A stretch of DNA of 38,148 nt, taken from positions 1 through 38,148 of the IMG/VR virus record IMGVR_UViG_3300037847_001257; one strand, written 5' to 3'. Of this stretch, positions 12,578-34,510 are shown piece by piece (position 1 is the first letter of the stretch; the number at the start of each line of letters is the position of its first letter). Source of the DNA: a virus. The position numbers and the translations under genes are program-made. The notes beneath the pieces were generated by a model. That model was not told the origin of the DNA. It saw nothing but the letters and a program-made list of their open reading frames with translations, and ran no database searches.

Positions 12578-15500
12578 TTATTCTCCTTTTAAGTTTTTAA
12601 TTTCAGCCATGAGTTCATCATAACCATCCATATCTTTTAAACCTTTTGGTTTGTGGGAATTCTTTTTAAGTTCTTCTACTTGTGTAGAAAGTTCTTTTAC
12701 TGCATTTACTAGATACCATGTCATGTTATCTGGGTTTACAGTTTTTACTCCTGTTGACTGTGTTTCAACCATATCAGGTAAAATTGTTTCTATTTCTTGT
12801 GCTATAACACCAAGTTGTATTCCTTCTTTATCGATAGCAGCATGACTTGGAACTTCTGTTATTTCATCTTCAGTTCTATATTCAAAGTTTTTAACTTGTA
12901 TTTGATTTATAGCATCAAGACCCATGTTGTTATCTTCTATATTCTTTTTAATTCTTTCATCAGATGTTGTTGACCAAGATGATGAATTATTACCTTGATA
13001 TACTCCACTTGTTACAGTTATAAAACCTGTATTATCGCCTTTACCAGTATTTGTAGAATTTCCTGTACCAATTACTAATTCACCATCAACATCAGATGCA
13101 CTTGCTGCTGATAAATAACCTATGTAAACATTAAATTCACCAGTAGTTAAATTATTTCCGGGAATAGAAGGTCCAACACAAGTATTGTATCTACCAGTAG
13201 TTATAGCAGGACCTGCATTAGAACCAAAAAGAGCATTATGTGTACCAGTTGTAACAGCAGAACCAGTACTATAGCCAACCATAGTATTACTTGTAGCACT
13301 TGTAATAGCATCACCAGTTAAATTTCCTATAGTAATATTGTAGCTTCCAGTAGTTTGTGTAAAACCTGCTCTATACCCTATACCCGTATTATGAATACCA
13401 GTAGTACATTTTTCTAAAGCCTCATAACCCATAGCTGTATTAGAATCACCAGTAGTACAGTCTGTTAATGTTCCATAACCATAAGCAGTATTACCACCAC
13501 CAGTTGTTATTGCATCACCTGATATATACCCTGTTAAAGTACAACCAGTTGCTGTTGTTATAGCTGCTCCTGTATTATAACCAATAGCTACATTTCCAGA
13601 ATTATCTCCAGCATTTTGAGTTAATAAAGCATTTCTACCTATAGCAACACAATAACTTCCTGTATCATCAGTATTTAGAGCATTAATACCTATAGCAACA
13701 TTACTACCACCAGTTGTATTTGCTCTTAAAGTATGTTTACCTATTGCTGTGTTTTCATTACCTGTATTGTTTTCTAACGATTCAACACCTATAGCAACAT
13801 TACCTGCTCCTGATAAAGTATCTAGTAAAGCTGCTCTACCTATAGCAACATTATCAGTACCAGTTGTTAATTTACCCATAGCTTCATAACCAACAGCAGT
13901 ATTGTTAGAACCTGTAGTAATTGCATCTCCACACTCTGCACCTATTGCTGTGTTCTGCGCCCCTGTGGTGCTTGACCTTAATGCTTTAGAACCAAGTCCT
14001 GTATTGTTACTAGCTGTAGTGGCTGCTTGAAGTGATGCATAACCAACACCTACATTATCTTGACCAGTTGTATTAGCTGATAAAACATCTCTACCTATAG
14101 CAACATTTTGGTCTCCTTCTGTATTTGCATCAAGAGAAGTAGAACCTACTGCTACATTATTTGTTCCTGTAGTATTAGATTCCATAGAACTTCTACCTAT
14201 AGCTACATTATTACTTGCTGTTGTATTTGAATCTAATGCTCTTCTACCTAGAGCAACATTATAATCACCTGTTGTATTTGTATCTAATGCTCTATAACCC
14301 ATAGCAACATTGTAAGAACCTGTAGTAATTGATAATCCAGCATCTGCTCCTATTGCTGTATTTTCAGAACCTGTTGTATTTGCTCCTAAAGAACGATAGC
14401 CAACTGTTGTATTATAACTAGCAGTAGTATTAGCATCTAAAGCATTAGCTCCAACTGCTGTGTTGTATTGCCCTTCTGTATTAGCATCCATAGCAGCATA
14501 ACCAATAGCTGTGTTTCTTTCTGCTGTTGTGTTTGTGTCTAGTGCATAAGTTCCTACTGCTACATTTAAAGCACCAGTAGTATTGTCATTTAAAGCATCT
14601 GAACCTATAGCAATATTAGCGTTGGCTGTAGTATTTGCTTGTAATGCTTGGTGTCCTACAGCTGTATTGAAACTTCCTGTGCTGTTAGCACTTAAAGAAT
14701 TAGACCCTATACCAACATTTTGTTGACCTGTTGTATTAGCATCTAAAGCTAGTGTTCCAAAAGCATTATTATGAGAACCTGTTGTATTACTTAATAAAGC
14801 ATTATATCCAACAGCATTATTATTTGAAGCAGTTGTATTAGCATTAAGTGCTTGTGAACCACACGCAACATTAAATTGACCAGTTGTTGTTGCTTCTAAC
14901 GCAGTAAAACCTACTGCTGTATTATGGTTAGATGCATCATTATTTTGTGCAGATAAAGCAAAATAACCTAGAGCTGTTGACCTAGTTCCTGTATCTTCTG
15001 CATCAAGAGCATTATATCCAACAGCTACATTATAATCACCAGTTGTTAGAGCAGCACCTGCATTTGAGCCTATAACAACATTTCTTTGACTTCCACTTGC
15101 TAATGCAGCACCAGCACCATCACCTAATCTTACATTGTTACTACCTGCTGTGCTTGTAATAATTTGACCAACAAAAGTAGCATTACCACCTTCTGACATA
15201 TCAAGGGTTAAAGCTGTTACTTCAGAACCGCCATCATCTCCAATAATTTTAAAATCTGCATCTTGTGTATTTACTTTTACTTGATAAGTTCCAGAAACAT
15301 TAGACCATGTAGCAATAGTTGTTCCATCATCTTTATATCTCCAGTCTCCACCACCTGCATCTAATGCAATATCAGCAGCAGAATCTATAGTAAAGTCTGC
15401 ACCACTTGTTATATCTAACGCACCACTATCAGAAATAGTAGAACCATTTATAGTAATATCATCTACTGTAAGTGTTGAAAGAGTACCAAGACTTGTAATA

Positions 15501-26836: not shown

Positions 26837-29251
26837 TTACTCTCCTTTAGTTAATGTGTCAGATGATCTGACGTCTTTTAGTATATCATAAAATTCTTTA
26901 CGTATGTTGCCTTCTTCTTTCATTTCTGCTGACTCACGCTGTTGTGCTATTTTCATTTCAGCTATAGCTTCTTGTGACTGTATACGTTGAGCGTCAACTT
27001 GTGCCCTTATCATATCACTTTCAGCTCTTTGTTGTATTTCAGCTTCTTTTAGTTTTACTATTGGGTCAACTTGTTCAAGCTCTTGTGCTCTAGCTAAGGC
27101 TTCCGCTTGACCAGTAACTACTTGTGTAGCTTGAGCTGCAGCAGTAGCTATCTGGTTCATAACCTCTGGTGGCATAGGTCCAGCCGACATATCTGGTAAC
27201 GGTTGACCTAATACCTGCTCTATTTGTTGTTTATACTTCATAGCTTGATGCTCTTGTATGTTAGCCTGTATAGAAACCATAGCCCCTTGATTTTGTTGCA
27301 TCATAGGGTTTTGTAAAAAGGCACTATGTGCTTGAATATACGCATCGTGGTTTTGAAACTCAAAAGCCTGTATAGGTTGGTTAGTTAATGCTGCCTGTTG
27401 TTCGCTTATAGGGTCACGTGGAGGTACTTCACTAGGCGGTGGTAGTATTAATTCTATGTTTTTTACCTCTAAAGCCTCATACATACGCCTATAAGCCTCT
27501 CTTAAGTCGTGAATATCGGGTGCAGCTTGTGCCATCTGTAGTTCTTGCTGTGCCAACATCACTCTTTGTGCCATACTAAAGATATTAGGGTCACTAACGG
27601 GTAAAATATCTATTCTATTGTCAAAATCAGTAGCTTTTACCTCTCTAGTAGCTCCTGGCACGTCATATGGGTAAACTGGCGGTAAACTTTTACTAAAAAT
27701 ACCCGCTAAAAGCTTAAATTCTTTCTTTTGTGCGTAATGTAAGCGTTTATGTATAGCTGACATCACTTTTGTACCCCTTTCTAGCATAGCTACGGTAGTT
27801 CCTACGGGTAATTGTTGACTACCTATGTCACCAACCTGCATATCTGCGATAGAAGCGAACCTTCTACCTGAATCTATCAGTACACCTAGTAGTTGGCTCA
27901 GTACATTACTCGGTTCTTTATAGGGTAAAGGCATTAATGCGTCCCTAATCACTCCTCCTGGTACATCAACATCCCTAAATTCACCTGGACGGAGCGGTTC
28001 ATCCTCACCTTGTACTCTCATGCCCCTAGCTTTAAAGCCTGCAGGTAAATTACTAAGAGTTCCAGCGTCTACTAACTGACGTAATATAGAAGTAGCTGAC
28101 TTAGTTAGCCCACCAATCATGTGAATTAGCCCGAAACCGTAAAAACCTAGTCCTGGAAGGAACTTATAGTGTACAAAATACTCTTTTTTACGGAATAATT
28201 CGTCACCTTCGTTCCAATTACGTCTTACTGAAAGGATTTTACCCTCATCTTCTAGTATAGTTACTACGTAAGGCACACCAAAACCGAACTCATCTATGCC
28301 CTCTAGCTCTAAATCAACGTGAAACTCTAAAATATTGTACTCATCGTAGTCGTTTATAGATGGTGACATGCCTTGTAGCTCGTCCATCTTCTCTTTAGCT
28401 TCGTTATATTCTATATCTGCACTAGGGTCAGTGACTTCTATGTTTAAATATGTACCGTTTAGTTGTGATTTTTTTAAATCATTACCCGTCATACTTATAA
28501 CGTGGGTAAAACGGGGGCTACTTTCTAAGTCTGTAGTTTCATAGGAGACTACTAAGTCCTCAGCTTTTACTAAACGGCTAGTAGGTCTACCTAATAAATT
28601 GTCGTAATAAACTTTTTTAAATGCACTACCCGCTAAAGGTAGGTAAAACAGTAAACTGTCCATCTCTGGGTCATACTCTTTCATGACCTCAGTGATTTGA
28701 TAGTTCATAAATTCTTTTACCCGCTGGTTTTGTGCTTGTACTTCAGGAGTTTCATTGCCCATTATTCTAGTTTTAACTGGTCCGCCTGCTGGTAGTAACT
28801 CCCTATAAGCTTGAGCTTGAAACTGGGTAACGGCTTCACTTAATAATGGATGATGTACACCCGTAGCACCAGGGAAAGGTTCTTCTCTTTCTTCTATTTT
28901 AATACCCAGTAAATCTAAACCTTTAGTAAAAGTGTCAAGCCAATCTTTACGGGACTCTTTGTCATTATCGTAAGCTGAAAGTAGCTCATCACTTAAAGTA
29001 TTTAAATCAGCTTCATCAATTATTTCAGCTAGGTTCATTTGATGTTCAGTCATAACCATTGACATCTCTTCACCTATGGGGTTTACTTGACCCTCTGGTG
29101 TTATTTCAAAACTAGATGTAAGGTCGCCCTGAATATTCATTTCCTCAGGTAATTCAACTTCCATACCTAAGTCTGGTTGAGGGGCATCTTCTGGTAAATC
29201 TTCTATTATTTCTAAATCAATTTCACCTGAAGGTTTATTTTCTATTGCCAT
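26837..29251 (-). CDS. Portal protein, P22-like
   Basis: An 804-residue product. After an acidic N-terminus, the recognisable portal core begins near residue 95 (WLDTFTKGLDLLGIKIEERE, EPFPGATGVHHPLLSEAVTQ, FQAQAYRELLPAGGPVKTRI), continues with YDPEMDSLLFYLPLAGSAFK, and has IGGLTKSATSILRQLVDAGT with LSNLPAGFKARGM and LPVGTTVAMLERGTKVMSAI. The C-terminal 200 residues are Gln/Met/Ala-rich helices (QALNQ-type barrel). The length and motif order fit P22-type portals of marine podoviruses. It forms the dodecameric channel that engages the TerL motor. The start is 4 bases after the terminase stop. Confidence 0.92.
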   Translation of the reverse strand: MAIENKPSGEIDLEIIEDLPEDAPQPDLGMEVELPEEMNIQGDLTSSFEITPEGQVNPIGEEMSMVMTEHQMNLAEIIDEADLNTLSDELLSAYDNDKESRKDWLDTFTKGLDLLGIKIEEREEPFPGATGVHHPLLSEAVTQFQAQAYRELLPAGGPVKTRIMGNETPEVQAQNQRVKEFMNYQITEVMKEYDPEMDSLLFYLPLAGSAFKKVYYDNLLGRPTSRLVKAEDLVVSYETTDLESSPRFTHVISMTGNDLKKSQLNGTYLNIEVTDPSADIEYNEAKEKMDELQGMSPSINDYDEYNILEFHVDLELEGIDEFGFGVPYVVTILEDEGKILSVRRNWNEGDELFRKKEYFVHYKFLPGLGFYGFGLIHMIGGLTKSATSILRQLVDAGTLSNLPAGFKARGMRVQGEDEPLRPGEFRDVDVPGGVIRDALMPLPYKEPSNVLSQLLGVLIDSGRRFASIADMQVGDIGSQQLPVGTTVAMLERGTKVMSAIHKRLHYAQKKEFKLLAGIFSKSLPPVYPYDVPGATREVKATDFDNRIDILPVSDPNIFSMAQRVMLAQQELQMAQAAPDIHDLREAYRRMYEALEVKNIELILPPPSEVPPRDPISEQQAALTNQPIQAFEFQNHDAYIQAHSAFLQNPMMQQNQGAMVSIQANIQEHQAMKYKQQIEQVLGQPLPDMSAGPMPPEVMNQIATAAAQATQVVTGQAEALARAQELEQVDPIVKLKEAEIQQRAESDMIRAQVDAQRIQSQEAIAEMKIAQQRESAEMKEEGNIRKEFYDILKDVRSSDTLTKGE

Positions 29252-29255
29252 AATT

Positions 29256-30770
29256 TTAATAATAACTTATTTTTCGTTTATAGTATATCTCATCTTCTTC
29301 ATAGTCGCTAGGTAGTTTTACGAAGCCACCTTGTCTAAACCTTAATAAAGCCTGTGTGGTTGAGTCAACTAGGTCGTCATGATCGCCCGCAGGAAAAGCA
29401 GCACACTCTTCAATAAGTTCGTAAGCGTATTTAGTATCTGGTGCCCAAACCATACCTGACTCAAATAAAGGCGTACTAGCATTAACTCTAGCTATTTTAT
29501 CGTTACCTTTACTGGGGGTAAAATTTTGTACGGGTATACCTAAGTTACGTAACTCTTGGGTTAAAGGTATACCAGTAGCTTTACTTTCTATAATCACTAC
29601 GTCAGGTGACCACTCATTATATTGTTCATAAGCTACGGCTTTTAGTTCAGGAAAGCTGTACCTACCTTTAATACAGTCAAGTAAAATTATATGTGGTACG
29701 TTACCGTCATAAAACTCCTCACCTATTTTACCTTCAGGGTAAAACACTCCCCAAGTAGTTATAGCTGAGTAGTCCGCCATTGAGCTTTTTAAAAAAGCGG
29801 TATCGTAACTTTGTATTAAATATTCACAGGCGGGTGGTTTATCGTGTGGCCATGTGTTCCACCACTCACGTTTTATAAGTGCTCCCTCTTCACTAGTAGG
29901 GTTCTGCATATACTGAGCGTGCCACTTTGGTCCGCCCCTTAAACTAGCCTTTACGCTTTCTAATTCTTCTAGTTTCCAGTACTCTGGCCATAAAGCTTTA
30001 CCGCTAGGTAGTATGGCTGGTAGTTCTATAACTTCCCACTGGTCAGCTTTAGGGTCACGGGCAGCATCTTTAAGTAATCTACCCGTAAGGTCGTTTACGT
30101 TCCAACGGGTCATAACTATTACTATGGCTCCTCCTGGCTGTAAACGTTGACGCGGTCCAGATGTATACCACTCATACGTGTCGTCCATGCTTTTAGGATT
30201 CATGGCATCTTGTTCACTGTGCGGGTCATCAATAATAAATAGGTCAGCACCCCTACCCGCTAATGCACCGCCCACACCAGCTGCATAATACTCACCTTTT
30301 AATTTAGGATTAGCTTTATCTTGAGTTTCCCATTTACCTGCTGCTTTTGAGTCAGGGTTTATTAGTACATCAGGAAAAACTTTTTGAAAGTCTTCCGTTA
30401 ACATTAAGTCCCTAATCTTACGCCCAAACTTTACTGCTAAGTCTGCGGTGTGAGTAGCTTGTAGTATTTTTAAACTAGGGTTACGCCCTACTAAGTAAGC
30501 GGGGAAGTAATGACTAGCGAACTCACTTTTAGTATGACGCGGAGGCATATTAATTATAAGCCTTTTTATTTTACCTTTAGCTATACGGTCAAAAGCATCA
30601 GCCATCTTTTTATGATGTGCACCGCTGACAAACTGTGGCCATTGGCTTTTTACAAAGTTTAAAAAATTATCTTTACTAGCCTCAACGTTTTCTATTTCTT
30701 TTAAACGTTCAGTTAGTTCTAGGTGTTCTTTTAGTACGTCTTCTGGTAGATCGTTTAAATCATATTCCAT
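29256..30770 (-). CDS. Terminase large subunit
   Basis: A 504-residue product. The ATPase part has a variant P-loop at residues 75-82 (MPPRHTKS), Walker B with LFIIDDPHSE at 177-186, and a coupling motif VIVMTRWN at 217-224. The nuclease part has YDTAFLKSSMADYSA near 320, VVIIESKATG near 395 and GDHDDLVDSTTQALL near 475, giving the usual acidic triad. All key residues seem present. It cuts and pumps concatemeric genome DNA through the portal. It starts inside the last codons of the 810-residue gene (11-base overlap). No small subunit gene is recognisable next to it. Confidence 0.95.
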   Translation of the reverse strand: MEYDLNDLPEDVLKEHLELTERLKEIENVEASKDNFLNFVKSQWPQFVSGAHHKKMADAFDRIAKGKIKRLIINMPPRHTKSEFASHYFPAYLVGRNPSLKILQATHTADLAVKFGRKIRDLMLTEDFQKVFPDVLINPDSKAAGKWETQDKANPKLKGEYYAAGVGGALAGRGADLFIIDDPHSEQDAMNPKSMDDTYEWYTSGPRQRLQPGGAIVIVMTRWNVNDLTGRLLKDAARDPKADQWEVIELPAILPSGKALWPEYWKLEELESVKASLRGGPKWHAQYMQNPTSEEGALIKREWWNTWPHDKPPACEYLIQSYDTAFLKSSMADYSAITTWGVFYPEGKIGEEFYDGNVPHIILLDCIKGRYSFPELKAVAYEQYNEWSPDVVIIESKATGIPLTQELRNLGIPVQNFTPSKGNDKIARVNASTPLFESGMVWAPDTKYAYELIEECAAFPAGDHDDLVDSTTQALLRFRQGGFVKLPSDYEEDEIYYKRKISYY

Positions 30771-33192
30771 ATTTAAGGGTCATCAAAGGTTTAGTAACGT
30801 GCCCCCCTTTATTTAACCGTAATACTTCAAAAGCTTCTTTTACTTGAGGGGTGAGCATTATTTTAAAATATTCGTTACCTAGTTCATCAGTAAATTCTGT
30901 TGGGTTTAAAATTAACTTATAATCTTGTTCTATTTGTTTAAAACTTCTATCGTAATTTCTAGCGTATGAACTAGCACGTCTAGAGTGTTTACCGCCTCGT
31001 ATGTTTCTAGCGTCAATATAATACATAGCTTCTGGGTTAGAATCATAAGGGGGATAGACACTTGGGCTAGGTAAATCCTTATCCATTCTTTCTGTAGTGT
31101 TAATTATTGAAACTACGTCATCACCGTCTTTTCTATTAGGTCTCATAGTGTCAATCATCTCACCTGCATCTTTTTCTTTGAACCCGCCTTTACCGTCAGG
31201 TTTTACAGTAACGTTATAACGTACTCTATGGGCTGGGGACTCTTCAAAATATTTTAATTGATTAGGAGTAAGAACAAGATTACTATCTCCTGCAGCTTTT
31301 ACTAAAGCTCTATCGTTTTTAGGTAGTAATACATAGGGTGAATCATTTTTTACAGCGGTCTGTATACCGAACTTAACGTTATCAGTAAACCAATCACCCG
31401 CTTCAGCTCTCGGTAGTTTTTTAACTGCTTCGTTATAGTATTTACTACCTGCGTCAAAAAAGTCGTCGCCTAAAGCCTCACGTAAAGCGTTTTCTTTTTC
31501 TAAAGTGAACCTACCTTTTATTTCATCTACTTCATCAGCGAACCTATCGGCTGTTTCAAAGAAAGATTCATTTATTTGATATTCATCAAAAGCTTCTTGA
31601 TTTCTAGCTCTGACAAAAGTATCTACTTCGGCATCTTGTCTAGCGAGTATATCGTCATACTTTAATAAAAAAGGTTTAAGCGTACCACCTTCATCCATAG
31701 CTTTATAACCGCCAGGACTAGCAAGTTTCATAGCATTTAACGCACCGTTACCCTGAGTATATTGCTCATCTAAAATTGGAATAATTTCTTTAATACTACC
31801 GCCTTCTGCATCATCTAAATTTCTAGTGACTAATTTTTGTTTATCACCAGTCATTCTGTAAGGGTCGCTTTGTATCTCCTGTATTACAGTTACGTTTTTA
31901 TCTTTACCTACGTCAGTTACCGTATATCTTTGATGAGTGTACCTTCCGCCAGTATCAGTAAGGTCAGCACTAGTACCTTTAGCCAAGCCAGCATGACCTG
32001 ATTGTATAGTAGTTCGAGGGTTGTTAGGGTCTCTAGGTGATATATATCCGTCTTCATATTTTAATAAATCACCGCCGTAAAGCCTACCGTCATCATACAT
32101 GTTAAAAGTACGTTCACCATATATTGATTTACTTCTGTCAGTTTTTAGTACATCTTTAGGATCAAGTTCTTTTCTTAAAGCTGGGGTACTTAAATCAAAA
32201 GCAGTAGGGTGGTTAGCGAACTTTATAAAAGACTGTTGAGCCTCTGGTGCACCTTTAGGGTAAAAAGCATGATGCTCTTGTAGTTTAGGTGAGTTACTAA
32301 TAATATGTTCCATCAAAGCTCTAGGCGTAACAGTTTTATTATTAGCTATAAAATCTTCATCGACAAAACTTTTTATTTGTCTACTTACGTTATTATTCTT
32401 TTGACCTTTAGCCCCGCCTTCTACTCCGTAACGTTCCATAGCTTGAAAGATATTATTTATAGGTACGGCTTTATCTGGGTTTTTTCTGTAGAACGGAGTA
32501 TCAGCTAAAGCTACGGTACTAGTTAGTACTATGTTATTAGTCTGTGATTTAGTTACATTAGGAGGAGCATACTTAGGAGTAAAAGCAGTATACCTTATAT
32601 TATTTTCTATAACGGGGGCTATTGGTCCCTTAGGCGGGGGTCCACCCTCACCGCCAACTTTAGTTTTAGGTTTAGCGGGGGTATCTGTGCCTAACTTACC
32701 TAACCTACGTAACCCGAATAAAGTAGCACCTTTTAATAAACTAGGTACTTCGCCTACACCTATTAATGAACTAGCAGCAGACAAACCACTTAAACCGCCA
32801 AACAATCTAGATTCACCTGAACCTTTATAAGGACTAGGCATAGTGGGTTTATTTAGTGGACCTTCCATGGGGTTATACCCTAGCATCATTAAGTCAACTT
32901 CATACTCTTCTGTAGGTCTACGCCCTGATTTTTCTAAAGCTTCAATTTCTTTATCTTTAAAATACTTAGCCTCATAACCGTCAATTATATTACCTAAACC
33001 AGGAGTCATGTACATGGCCATTTGATCAAGGAACGGTAGCTGGACAAAGGACTCGTAAGCTTGTTCTACGTTACCTGTTTTAAAATCATTAACAATTTGT
33101 GGATAATTTTGTGATCTGCTGCGGAAACGTTTTTCTAAACCAGAAGCGTCTGGTCTCGGATAAGCGTATGTTGGTCGGTTACCTAATGACAT
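30760..33192 (-). CDS. Large protein of unknown function upstream of terminase, EIQSD motif
   Basis: An 810-residue product. The N-terminal 115 residues look structural (FLDQMAMYMTPGLGNIIDGY). Residues about 130-165 are hydrophobic and Gly-rich (FGGLSGLSAASSLIGVGEVP). The middle carries HHAFYPKGAPEAQQSFIKFA, and residues 433-446 read VTVIQEIQSDPYRM. In large phage and mobile-element polyvalent proteins a similar E-x-Q-S-D element follows a hydrophobic strand, so I suspect a distant relative of those domains. The C-terminus has YYIDARNIRGGKHSRRASSY and LRLNKGGHVTKPLM. Virion-packaged or injected effector is a guess. It overlaps both flanking genes. Confidence 0.7.
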   Translation of the reverse strand: MSLGNRPTYAYPRPDASGLEKRFRSRSQNYPQIVNDFKTGNVEQAYESFVQLPFLDQMAMYMTPGLGNIIDGYEAKYFKDKEIEALEKSGRRPTEEYEVDLMMLGYNPMEGPLNKPTMPSPYKGSGESRLFGGLSGLSAASSLIGVGEVPSLLKGATLFGLRRLGKLGTDTPAKPKTKVGGEGGPPPKGPIAPVIENNIRYTAFTPKYAPPNVTKSQTNNIVLTSTVALADTPFYRKNPDKAVPINNIFQAMERYGVEGGAKGQKNNNVSRQIKSFVDEDFIANNKTVTPRALMEHIISNSPKLQEHHAFYPKGAPEAQQSFIKFANHPTAFDLSTPALRKELDPKDVLKTDRSKSIYGERTFNMYDDGRLYGGDLLKYEDGYISPRDPNNPRTTIQSGHAGLAKGTSADLTDTGGRYTHQRYTVTDVGKDKNVTVIQEIQSDPYRMTGDKQKLVTRNLDDAEGGSIKEIIPILDEQYTQGNGALNAMKLASPGGYKAMDEGGTLKPFLLKYDDILARQDAEVDTFVRARNQEAFDEYQINESFFETADRFADEVDEIKGRFTLEKENALREALGDDFFDAGSKYYNEAVKKLPRAEAGDWFTDNVKFGIQTAVKNDSPYVLLPKNDRALVKAAGDSNLVLTPNQLKYFEESPAHRVRYNVTVKPDGKGGFKEKDAGEMIDTMRPNRKDGDDVVSIINTTERMDKDLPSPSVYPPYDSNPEAMYYIDARNIRGGKHSRRASSYARNYDRSFKQIEQDYKLILNPTEFTDELGNEYFKIMLTPQVKEAFEVLRLNKGGHVTKPLMTLKYGI

Positions 33193-33538
33193 GTTTACTA
33201 AAAAACTCCTTGCGTGCTTTTTTCAAGTTTACTTTATTTTGCATGATTATACTAGGTTTAGGTGTACTGTGATCTTTATCCTTAGGGTGTGACCAAAACC
33301 ACTTGGCTCGTGGACGCTCGTCATGTAAATCTTCAAGTATGTCCATAAGTGCCTCGCGAGACGTCGAGGAGTGACACTCAAACATAATGGCATCATAGTC
33401 ATCTATAACATGATAATACTCTTCTATTAACTTAGGGTCGTAATCTAATACTAATAGTTTACCGTTTTTATATGAGGGGGCTGAGTAAGGACAGACTTCA
33501 CTGATTGACTCAAAATATTTTACTAAGCGTTTAGACAT
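33179..33538 (-). CDS. First gene of the leftward late operon, hypothetical
   Basis: A 119-residue product: MSKRLVKYFESISEVCPYSA, PKLIEEYYHVIDDYDAIMFE, SREALMDILEDLHDERPRAK and a basic C-terminus (NLKKARKEFFSKHVIR). It has alternating helix and strand signals without a known catalytic motif. It is the gene nearest to the control region and overlaps the 810-residue gene by 14 bases. A terminase small-subunit role would fit the position, but I see no helix-turn-helix that would support it. Confidence 0.68.
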   Translation of the reverse strand: MSKRLVKYFESISEVCPYSAPSYKNGKLLVLDYDPKLIEEYYHVIDDYDAIMFECHSSTSREALMDILEDLHDERPRAKWFWSHPKDKDHSTPKPSIIMQNKVNLKKARKEFFSKHVIR

Positions 33539-33637: not shown

Positions 33638-33684
33638 CTACTTATATACCGTTAACCGTATAAGGGGGGTGGGGGTCTGTCTGT

Positions 33685-33840
33685 GTCGCAGCTCTGCTGC
33701 GACCCGCTGGAAGGACTTAAAACGCGTCTCCAGGGACTTTTGTCTTCTTCACGCCTGTGCGTCTGCCAGCTCTGCTGGCTCTGTGGTCGCCGTCAGGCGA
33801 CGCTGTGTGCGAGCTCTGCTCGCCTGTGTGCCCCGCAGGG
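33685..33840. repeat. Array of G+C-rich hairpins with shared CTCTG loop
   Basis: Three perfect hairpins share the loop CTCTG but have different stems: GTCGCAG/CTGCGAC at 33685-33703, GCCAG/CTGGC at 33765-33779 and GCGAG/CTCGC at 33809-33823. Further perfect hairpins lie between: ACGC-CTGT-GCGT at 33751-33762 and GTCGCC-GTCA-GGCGAC at 33786-33801; CCC-GCA-GGG at 33832-33840 is weaker. The word CTGTG precedes most stems. The block is clearly richer in G+C than its surroundings and is non-coding in any convincing sense. Stem changes that keep pairing indicate that structure is what is kept. Nature unknown. Confidence 0.82.
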
Positions 33841-33851
33841 AACAAAATGTT

Positions 33852-33900
33852 AGTAAGTACTTACTTACTTTTTAGTTCAAAAAAAGTATGTACTTTTTTT
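33852..33900. promoter_or_regulatory. Two perfect palindromes, operator candidates
   Basis: AGTAAGTACTTACT at 33852-33865 is a 14-bp perfect palindrome. At 33879-33900, arms of AAAAAAAGTA and TACTTTTTTT surround a TG centre. Both contain AAGTA/TACTT half-sites and lie 37-85 bases before the -10 box of the plus-strand gene. A dimeric repressor or activator site is the natural reading. The second could act as a weak terminator, though a two-base loop is unfavourable in RNA. Confidence 0.5.
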
Positions 33901-33975: not shown

Positions 33976-34227
33976 ATGAAAAATAATACTAAAACTAAAA
34001 CTACTACTAGCGTTAAACCCGCTACTAATCCCGCTGTACTTAGCGTTAATACCGCTAAGGCTAGGGTTGAAGGCGTTAACCTAAATCAAACTAGGTTAGC
34101 TAAAAGCGTTAAGGCTAAAACCTTAAATGACCTAGTAGAAATATATAGTAATTTATTCGGTTCTAATAATTATAGGGCTCACCTAAATTACGATATTAAA
34201 AAGGGGGCTATAGTACTAGAATCCTAG
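33976..34227 (+). CDS. Lone plus-strand gene, small basic Thr/Lys-rich protein
   Basis: Eighty-three residues from ATG 33976, with AAAGGGGG 5 bases upstream, a clear ribosome site. The N-terminus is Lys/Thr-rich (MKNNTKTKTTTSVKPATNPA), then SVNTAKARVEGVNLNQTRLA and SVKAKTLNDLVEIYSNLFGS, ending in a beta-like RAHLNYDIKKGAIVLES. The DNA word GCGTTAA recurs in frame at 34010, 34043, 34073 and 34106, encoding four Val-Lys/Asn steps 10-11 residues apart. It faces away from the late operon and towards the early one, with its own promoter and terminator, as an early regulator would. No family recognised. Confidence 0.75.
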   Translation: MKNNTKTKTTTSVKPATNPAVLSVNTAKARVEGVNLNQTRLAKSVKAKTLNDLVEIYSNLFGSNNYRAHLNYDIKKGAIVLES

Positions 34228-34232: not shown

Positions 34233-34270
34233 CCCCTACGGGGGGCGGTCAAACGCCCCCTATTTTTTTA
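34233..34270 (+). terminator. Strong intrinsic terminator after the plus-strand gene
   Basis: GGGGGCG at 34241-34247, loop GTCAAA, CGCCCCC at 34254-34260, then TATTTTTTT. An overlapping CCCC-TACG-GGGG stem (34233-34244) with a stable tetraloop would compete for the same G run, so the two structures are mutually exclusive, an attenuator-like arrangement. Confidence 0.9.
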
Positions 34271-34281
34271 CCGCTAACCAA

Positions 34282-34510
34282 GATCAAGATCATGAAGGAC
34301 CACGGTCCATGGACCAAGTGTCTTTGTCTTTGTGTCTTTGTCTTTTGTCTTTGTGTCTTTGATCATGATCACGATGGGCAACGGACCAAGGATCGTGGTT
34401 CATGTGCTATTGGCTGTTGTCTTTGGATCACGATCAAGATGTCTTTGTCTTTGTCTCATGGTCAATGGTCAATGGTCCATATATTTTGGTCCGTTGTCCT
34501 TGTCTCTAGG
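34282..34510. repeat. GATC/GGWCC/GTCTTTG-rich intergenic repeat island
   Basis: A non-coding stretch made of a few short words. GATC occurs seven times (34282, 34288, 34361, 34367, 34391, 34426, 34432). GGACC or GGTCC occurs at 34297, 34304, 34311, 34383, 34475 and 34488. GTCTTT runs occupy 34319-34360 and 34440-34457, and ATGGTCA is tandem at 34468-34483. TGATCATGATCA (34360-34371) and GGTCCATGGACC (34304-34315) are perfect 12-bp palindromes. Plus-strand open frames here are low-complexity by-products. An origin, methylation-sensitive control site or repeat-expanded spacer are options. Confidence 0.75.

Follow-up and report, generated by a model that had tools for sequence, protein, structure and literature searches.

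A one-strand array of probable DNA mini-hairpins behind a G-tract upstream of terL in HTVC023P-like marine phages: a candidate site for viral DNA replication or packaging

The window analyzed here, the whole 38,148-nucleotide stretch of IMG/VR record IMGVR_UViG_3300037847_001257, is part of an uncultured HTVC023P-like marine phage genome and carries a dense cluster of G+C-rich hairpins. The cluster has the look of a control site not described before, for which we infer a job in the copying or packaging of viral DNA. The hairpins have covarying stems, share a loop rule, lie on one strand and occupy a fixed place after a G-tract. The cluster was first noticed in an initial annotation made from the sequence alone; that observation is confirmed and extends further than first noted. 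Sequence data by themselves seldom reveal selection on DNA secondary structure; in this case the combination of independent stems, strict loop rules and orientation on a single strand brings it out. Additionally, the clade-wide G-tract upstream of the terminase large subunit gene (terL) provides a handle on the start of replication or packaging in a marine phage group for which no description of either was found in the open-access literature.

Genes of the window run leftward almost throughout, and the G+C-rich block sits between the leftward gene of a 119-aa protein and a rightward 83-aa ORF (Table 1). The initial annotation placed the block between divergent transcription units, which is true of the window; in some relatives (L006, L115-L119), however, the small ORF faces the other way without any change in the direction of the array. 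The array is therefore not simply the 5' UTR of the small ORF, and that identity was rejected. Within the 119-aa protein, a WxWSHP motif is invariant. INPHARED records contain no relative of this array-adjacent protein of the subclade. Neither the 119-aa protein nor the small-ORF family gave a Pfam match above cut-off or a PDB fold match at E <= 0.001; against a viral model library, the 119-aa protein matched only uncharacterised or unnamed phage models, and its best BFVD match was A0A516M8K8. The K/T-rich small-protein family is represented by several paralogues per genome in both orientations (window, L025, L085, L109, L148 and L187), and these paralogous ORFs often stand behind their own AGTAAGTACTTACT palindrome. 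After the small ORF of the window, positions 34262-34500 comprise low-complexity GTCTTTGTCTTTGTGTC repeats and GATCATGATCACGAT palindromes with numerous TTGTC/GTGTC motifs, a style kept in relatives. Searches for DNA similarity to known phages returned only spurious A+T-rich matches to Fusobacterium phage.

Table 1 Features of the window around the hairpin array and the terminase genes
Feature	Position	Strand	Remarks
Portal protein	26837..29251	-	~49% identity to HTVC023P/027P
Terminase large subunit	29256..30770	-	~61% identity to Pelagibacter phage HTVC027P
119-aa protein gene	33179..33538	-	Fold family unassigned; accompanies the arrays of relatives; missing from more distant G-tract loci
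G-tract ATAAGGGGGGTGGGGG	33660..33675	+	Fixed left edge of array; points away from terL
Hairpin 1, GTCGCAGC(TCT)GCTGCGAC	33685..33703	+	Perfect 8-bp stem; GTCGCAG-CTCTG-CTGCGAC
Imperfect hairpin CTGGAAGGACTTAAAACGCGTCTCCAG	33707..33733	+	DNA fold
Hairpin 2, GCCAGC(TCT)GCTGGC	33765..33779	+	6-bp stem, perfect
Hairpin 3, GTCGCC(GTCA)GGCGAC	33786..33801	+	d(cGNNAg) type, perfect
Hairpin 4, GCGAGC(TCT)GCTCGC	33809..33823	+	6-bp stem; outer pair G-C here, C-G in L004
Short 3-bp hairpin CCC(GCA)GGG	33832..33840	+	Recurrent last cassette TGTGCCCCGCAGGGA
Palindrome AGTAAGTACTTACT	33852..33865		Usual right edge of arrays
83-aa ORF, paralogous small-protein family	33976..34227	+	K/T-rich tail and small helical domain; orientation differs among relatives
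Intrinsic-terminator-like hairpin and T-run	34240..34261	+	3' of small ORF

The three different perfect stems described as sharing a CTCTG loop were all found (hairpins 1, 2 and 4), although a reading as GC(TCT)GC fits them better, with a TCT triloop and a C-G closing pair on stems of 8, 6 and 6 bp. The CTGTG said to precede most units is likewise present, at 33681, 33755, 33781, 33803 and 33824. Regarding the two further perfect hairpins that had been proposed, hairpin 3 is clearly perfect, whereas the other candidates are the 3-bp hairpin and the imperfect one. Four perfect stems of at least 6 bp within 156 nt compare with a mean of 0.15 and a maximum of 3 in 5,000 dinucleotide shuffles, none of which reached four, and DNA folding of the block gave z = -3.8. 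Across the 38 kb, this loop class is represented by four hairpins, all inside 139 bp of the block. The AGTAAGTACTTACT palindrome that usually closes the arrays is probably an operator bound by a protein.

Searches with TerL, with the 119-aa protein and with DNA patterns gathered more than 100 IMG/VR loci, on fragmentary contigs. Relatives lacking the block had been named as potential counter-evidence; of 31 distinct loci that carry the 119-aa gene, 30 have an array in the equivalent slot, compared with 2 of the 33 more distantly related terminase loci without the gene. Dozens of independent contigs carry the array, which rules out an assembly artefact, the other concern raised at the outset. 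Arrays of relatives differ in how many hairpins they have, in hairpin order and in stem sequence; the leading G-tract is constant, each array beginning directly after a G6-T-G5 tract, and the terminal palindrome is usual. In some genomes, another array of like orientation follows downstream, ahead of a paralogous small ORF. Very long G-runs (ATCCAGGGGGGGGGGGGGTGG) stand behind some arrays (L088, L048 and L154), and contigs sometimes end there.

Pairing is retained while the stem sequences change. A set of 34 distinct GCTCTGC units was drawn from relatives by nearness to the G-tract, not by pairing; 94.6% of their cells were paired, versus 71.4% after shuffling, and 39 cells were altered on both sides, versus 10.9. 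The covariation score was 0.544, a value reached in 0 of 500 shuffled sets; shuffling gave 0.134 and sliding 0.04-0.08. Kinship among the units can inflate the shuffle statistics, and both E-values and shuffles correct only partly for shared descent; the slid control, which retains kinship, fails to reproduce the signal. Hairpin 4 supplies a direct compensatory case in its exchanged outer pair (Table 1). The initial claim that structure is preserved under sequence change thus holds for a much larger set of units.

A strict rule governs the loops: the closing pair is C-G, the loop is GNA, GNNA or TNT, and the strand is always the same. Counting one hairpin per inner stem and loop, so that some may still be related, 42 of 55 distinct hairpins from 33 non-redundant arrays follow the rule with C-G closure. 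On the strand of the G-tract, they divide into 13 c(GNA)g, 16 c(GNNA)g and 13 c(TNT)g. Hairpins obeying the rule in mirror orientation number zero, and each class stays at 1% or less in shuffles. The GCTCTGC core occurs 60 times forward and once in reverse. Hairpins of the d(cGNNAg) and d(cGNAg) types are exceptionally stable in DNA. The c(TNT)g hairpins have C(ANA)G as their complement, which can close a loop of one residue. In 13 of the 16 distinct GNNA hairpins, a pyrimidine stands third in the loop; this is disallowed in RNA GNRA loops and therefore favors folded DNA over RNA. Mean folding z-scores for the plus and minus strands were -4.1 and -4.0 with DNA parameters and -2.7 and -3.6 with RNA parameters. 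On these grounds, the target of selection is probably DNA structure rather than RNA. In hairpins CCGAGCGAAGCGAGG and CCGAGCGTAGCGAGG of L115-L119, L088 and L074, a GNA triloop is combined with tandem G-A mismatches that lie between G-C pairs, a further shape that folded DNA would accommodate.

A structured RNA, transcribed from the G-tract side or from the opposite strand, with the hairpins serving as a leader, a stabiliser or a protein sponge in the manner of CsrB/RsmZ, would also account for strand-asymmetric loops, covarying stems and RNA folds that beat shuffles. The sponge RNAs resemble the array in their rows of hairpins whose loops are fixed and whose stems vary, but the phage loops contain no GGA (0 of 55 distinct hairpins), which led us to reject a Csr sponge. 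The GNNA loops are mainly GNYA rather than GNRA, no Rfam family matched, so that a known RNA family was rejected, no above-chance promoter precedes the array, and the orientation of the small ORF is independent of that of the array. An RNA role is accordingly rather unlikely. The initial exclusion of a tRNA, a CRISPR or an ordinary terminator survived testing in all three cases: the repeats are 65-78% alike at spacings of 78 and 44, unlike a CRISPR, and a stem with a T-run occurs only beyond the small ORF (Table 1), with none in the array.

Small DNA hairpins of fixed loop also serve as promoters for the virion RNA polymerase of phage N4 (P1-P3), where variable stems carry a C-G closing pair and a fixed triloop, and structure rather than stem sequence is recognised. 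The N4 hairpins require that closing pair together with a 5' G, a central purine and a 3' A in the loop (PMC4496689). Hairpin promoters for a virion-carried RNA polymerase would fit the C-G-closed triloops (C-G closure in 42 of 55), variable stems, fixed loop and single orientation of the array, whose core AGC-AGA-GCT resembles the N4 hairpins. However, N4 has three spread promoters with GRA loops on the template strand, whereas the phage array is dense and bears TNT, GNA and GNNA loops; the loop that predominates on the candidate template strand reads AGA rather than GRA, and its GNA loops are mostly GTA or GCA, without the central purine. Nor was a giant RNA polymerase found: the largest ORF of the window (1759 aa) has only a lysozyme-like match, and the largest ORFs in long relatives span 805-1015 aa. 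The PF00940 profile gave no match, its controls being equally silent. With the template-loop rule and the polymerase both failing, N4-like promoters were rejected as an identity and are very improbable as an explanation.

The initial annotation had suggested three roles: a mobile hairpin family, a replication or packaging signal, or a structured RNA. Selfish or recombinogenic cassettes multiplying in an intergenic slot, comparable to mitochondrial GC clusters and double-hairpin elements, would explain the modular mosaic of recurring CTGTGTGCGAGCTCTGCTCGC and TGTGCCCCGCAGGGA cassettes, the tandem duplication in L035/L120 and the second arrays downstream. Those mitochondrial elements are likewise GC-rich hairpins with compensatory stems in A+T-rich intergenic DNA, but the phage array keeps to one slot, one orientation and a strict loop rule. 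Instead of copies at many places, as expected of a mobile element, copies were found only in the region upstream of terL, as one slot plus tandem duplicates in one phage subclade. Among viral contigs, the searched cassettes formed arrays only in the present phage family, and matches outside it were lone sites. In bacterial genomes (GTDB), a search with one cassette pattern yielded 10 matches, none paired and none in arrays, and an origin from bacterial genomes was rejected. REP/BIME elements with their RAYT share clustered short GC-rich palindromes; the array differs in having no GTAG/GGAG head, Y1 transposase or scatter, and Y1 transposase was found in 0 of 6 phage records with positive controls. 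Furthermore, the one-way orientation (60:1) together with the compensatory changes points to selection, which argues against selfish cassettes. A freely mobile family is therefore improbable. Occurrences of AGCTCTGCT at G004:2200 and 2309 lie within genes and were dismissed as chance.

The array abuts a G-tract that is shared across the clade upstream of terL, so that a replication or packaging signal fits best among the three suggested roles; the freely mobile family finds no support, and a structured RNA is less likely, the loops suiting DNA better. A DNA-only scan for ATAAGGGGGGTGGGGG returned 93 stretches; loci with the tract include the window and L132-L211. In all 58 loci where TerL could be placed, the tract lies upstream of terL, and in 56 of them it is on the opposite strand, pointing away; TerL identities in the loci with the tract range from 87% down to 29-45%. 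In the majority of distant relatives, the G-tract occurs without hairpin arrays. The array is thus best regarded as a one-subclade addition to an older control region, and the hairpins are dispensable for the role of the tract in those distant relatives. The motifs GGAGTCCC and GGGACTCC are enriched within 300 bp of the G-tract on either side in distant relatives (L134, L140, L177, L202, L025 and others), against a background of ~0.004 per 300 bp.

We tentatively favor the reading of the array as a cis-acting DNA element belonging to a G-tract-primed origin, the origin role itself being speculative. The block would act as stable DNA mini-hairpins, either folded single strands or extruded cruciforms, rather than as a protein or RNA gene, and would form part of a control region upstream of the terminase and late genes. 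In mitochondria, a G-tract primes replication and the OriL hairpin primes the second strand. At mitochondrial CSB II, the G-tracts of the non-template strand, two runs split by one base as in the phage, stall transcription and mediate hybrid-quadruplex formation, termination and R-loop priming, and a G6TG8 variant is recorded (PMC5027508). By analogy only, since the phage has many hairpins beside its G-tract, a rightward transcript could stall at the G6-T-G5 tract and stay hybridised, so that the duplex opens and the transcript offers a 3' end able to prime DNA synthesis. The displaced G-rich strand, which carries all the GNA/GNNA loops, might then fold into c(GNA)g, c(GNNA)g and c(TNT)g hairpins that would mark a second-strand priming site or a loading site for phage replication or initiator proteins. 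The otherwise unidirectional genomes and circular contig maps count in favor of an origin. No origin-like switch in GC skew was seen, the skew being uniform with gene direction; no promoter driving transcription into the G-tract was recognised, and none above chance precedes the array. The T7-type primase zinc ribbon PF08273 was found in 0 of 8 records, the control being positive in one genome.

A conserved position ahead of terL is equally typical of packaging, and a pac site for the terminase is only slightly less likely than an origin or priming site. The G-tract with its GGAGTCCC-type motifs and the hairpins would then constitute a pac or end-processing region recognised by the terminase, with the cut halted or marked by the hairpins. 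Consistent with such a site are the enriched motifs and the conservation of the G-tract ahead of the terL operon in all of the 58 loci, at TerL identities from ~30-45% up, the hairpins being restricted to the subclade. Contig ends fall within 400 bp on the array side 11 times, versus 3 expected, but their distances are scattered, as with assembly breaks. The window contig and others continue across the array, and the long contigs are circularly permuted relative to one another; a plain cos-type genome end was therefore rejected. Moreover, no terS was recognised adjoining the array. Taken as a class, the G-tract and its DNA-specific mini-hairpins may well be a new kind of phage cis-element in an uncultured marine lineage, a folded-DNA origin or packaging platform subject to compensatory change and cassette turnover, though we stop short of calling this probable.

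HTVC023P-type pelagiphages have the terminase and portal lineage in common with the window phage; two cultured members, HTVC023P and HTVC027P, contain neither an array nor a G6-T-G5 tract in the first 50 kb of each. The paper on HTVC023P-type genomes mentions no hairpins or intergenic structure (PMC9599517). In phage 023Pt_psg01 (L223), the strand opposite terL carries repeated G-rich tracts (GGGGTGGGTGGGCCC and similar), both upstream of that gene and at record positions 15447 and 16260. They are possibly a distant version of the G-tract and array region, and one of them adjoins a c(GCAA)g hairpin.
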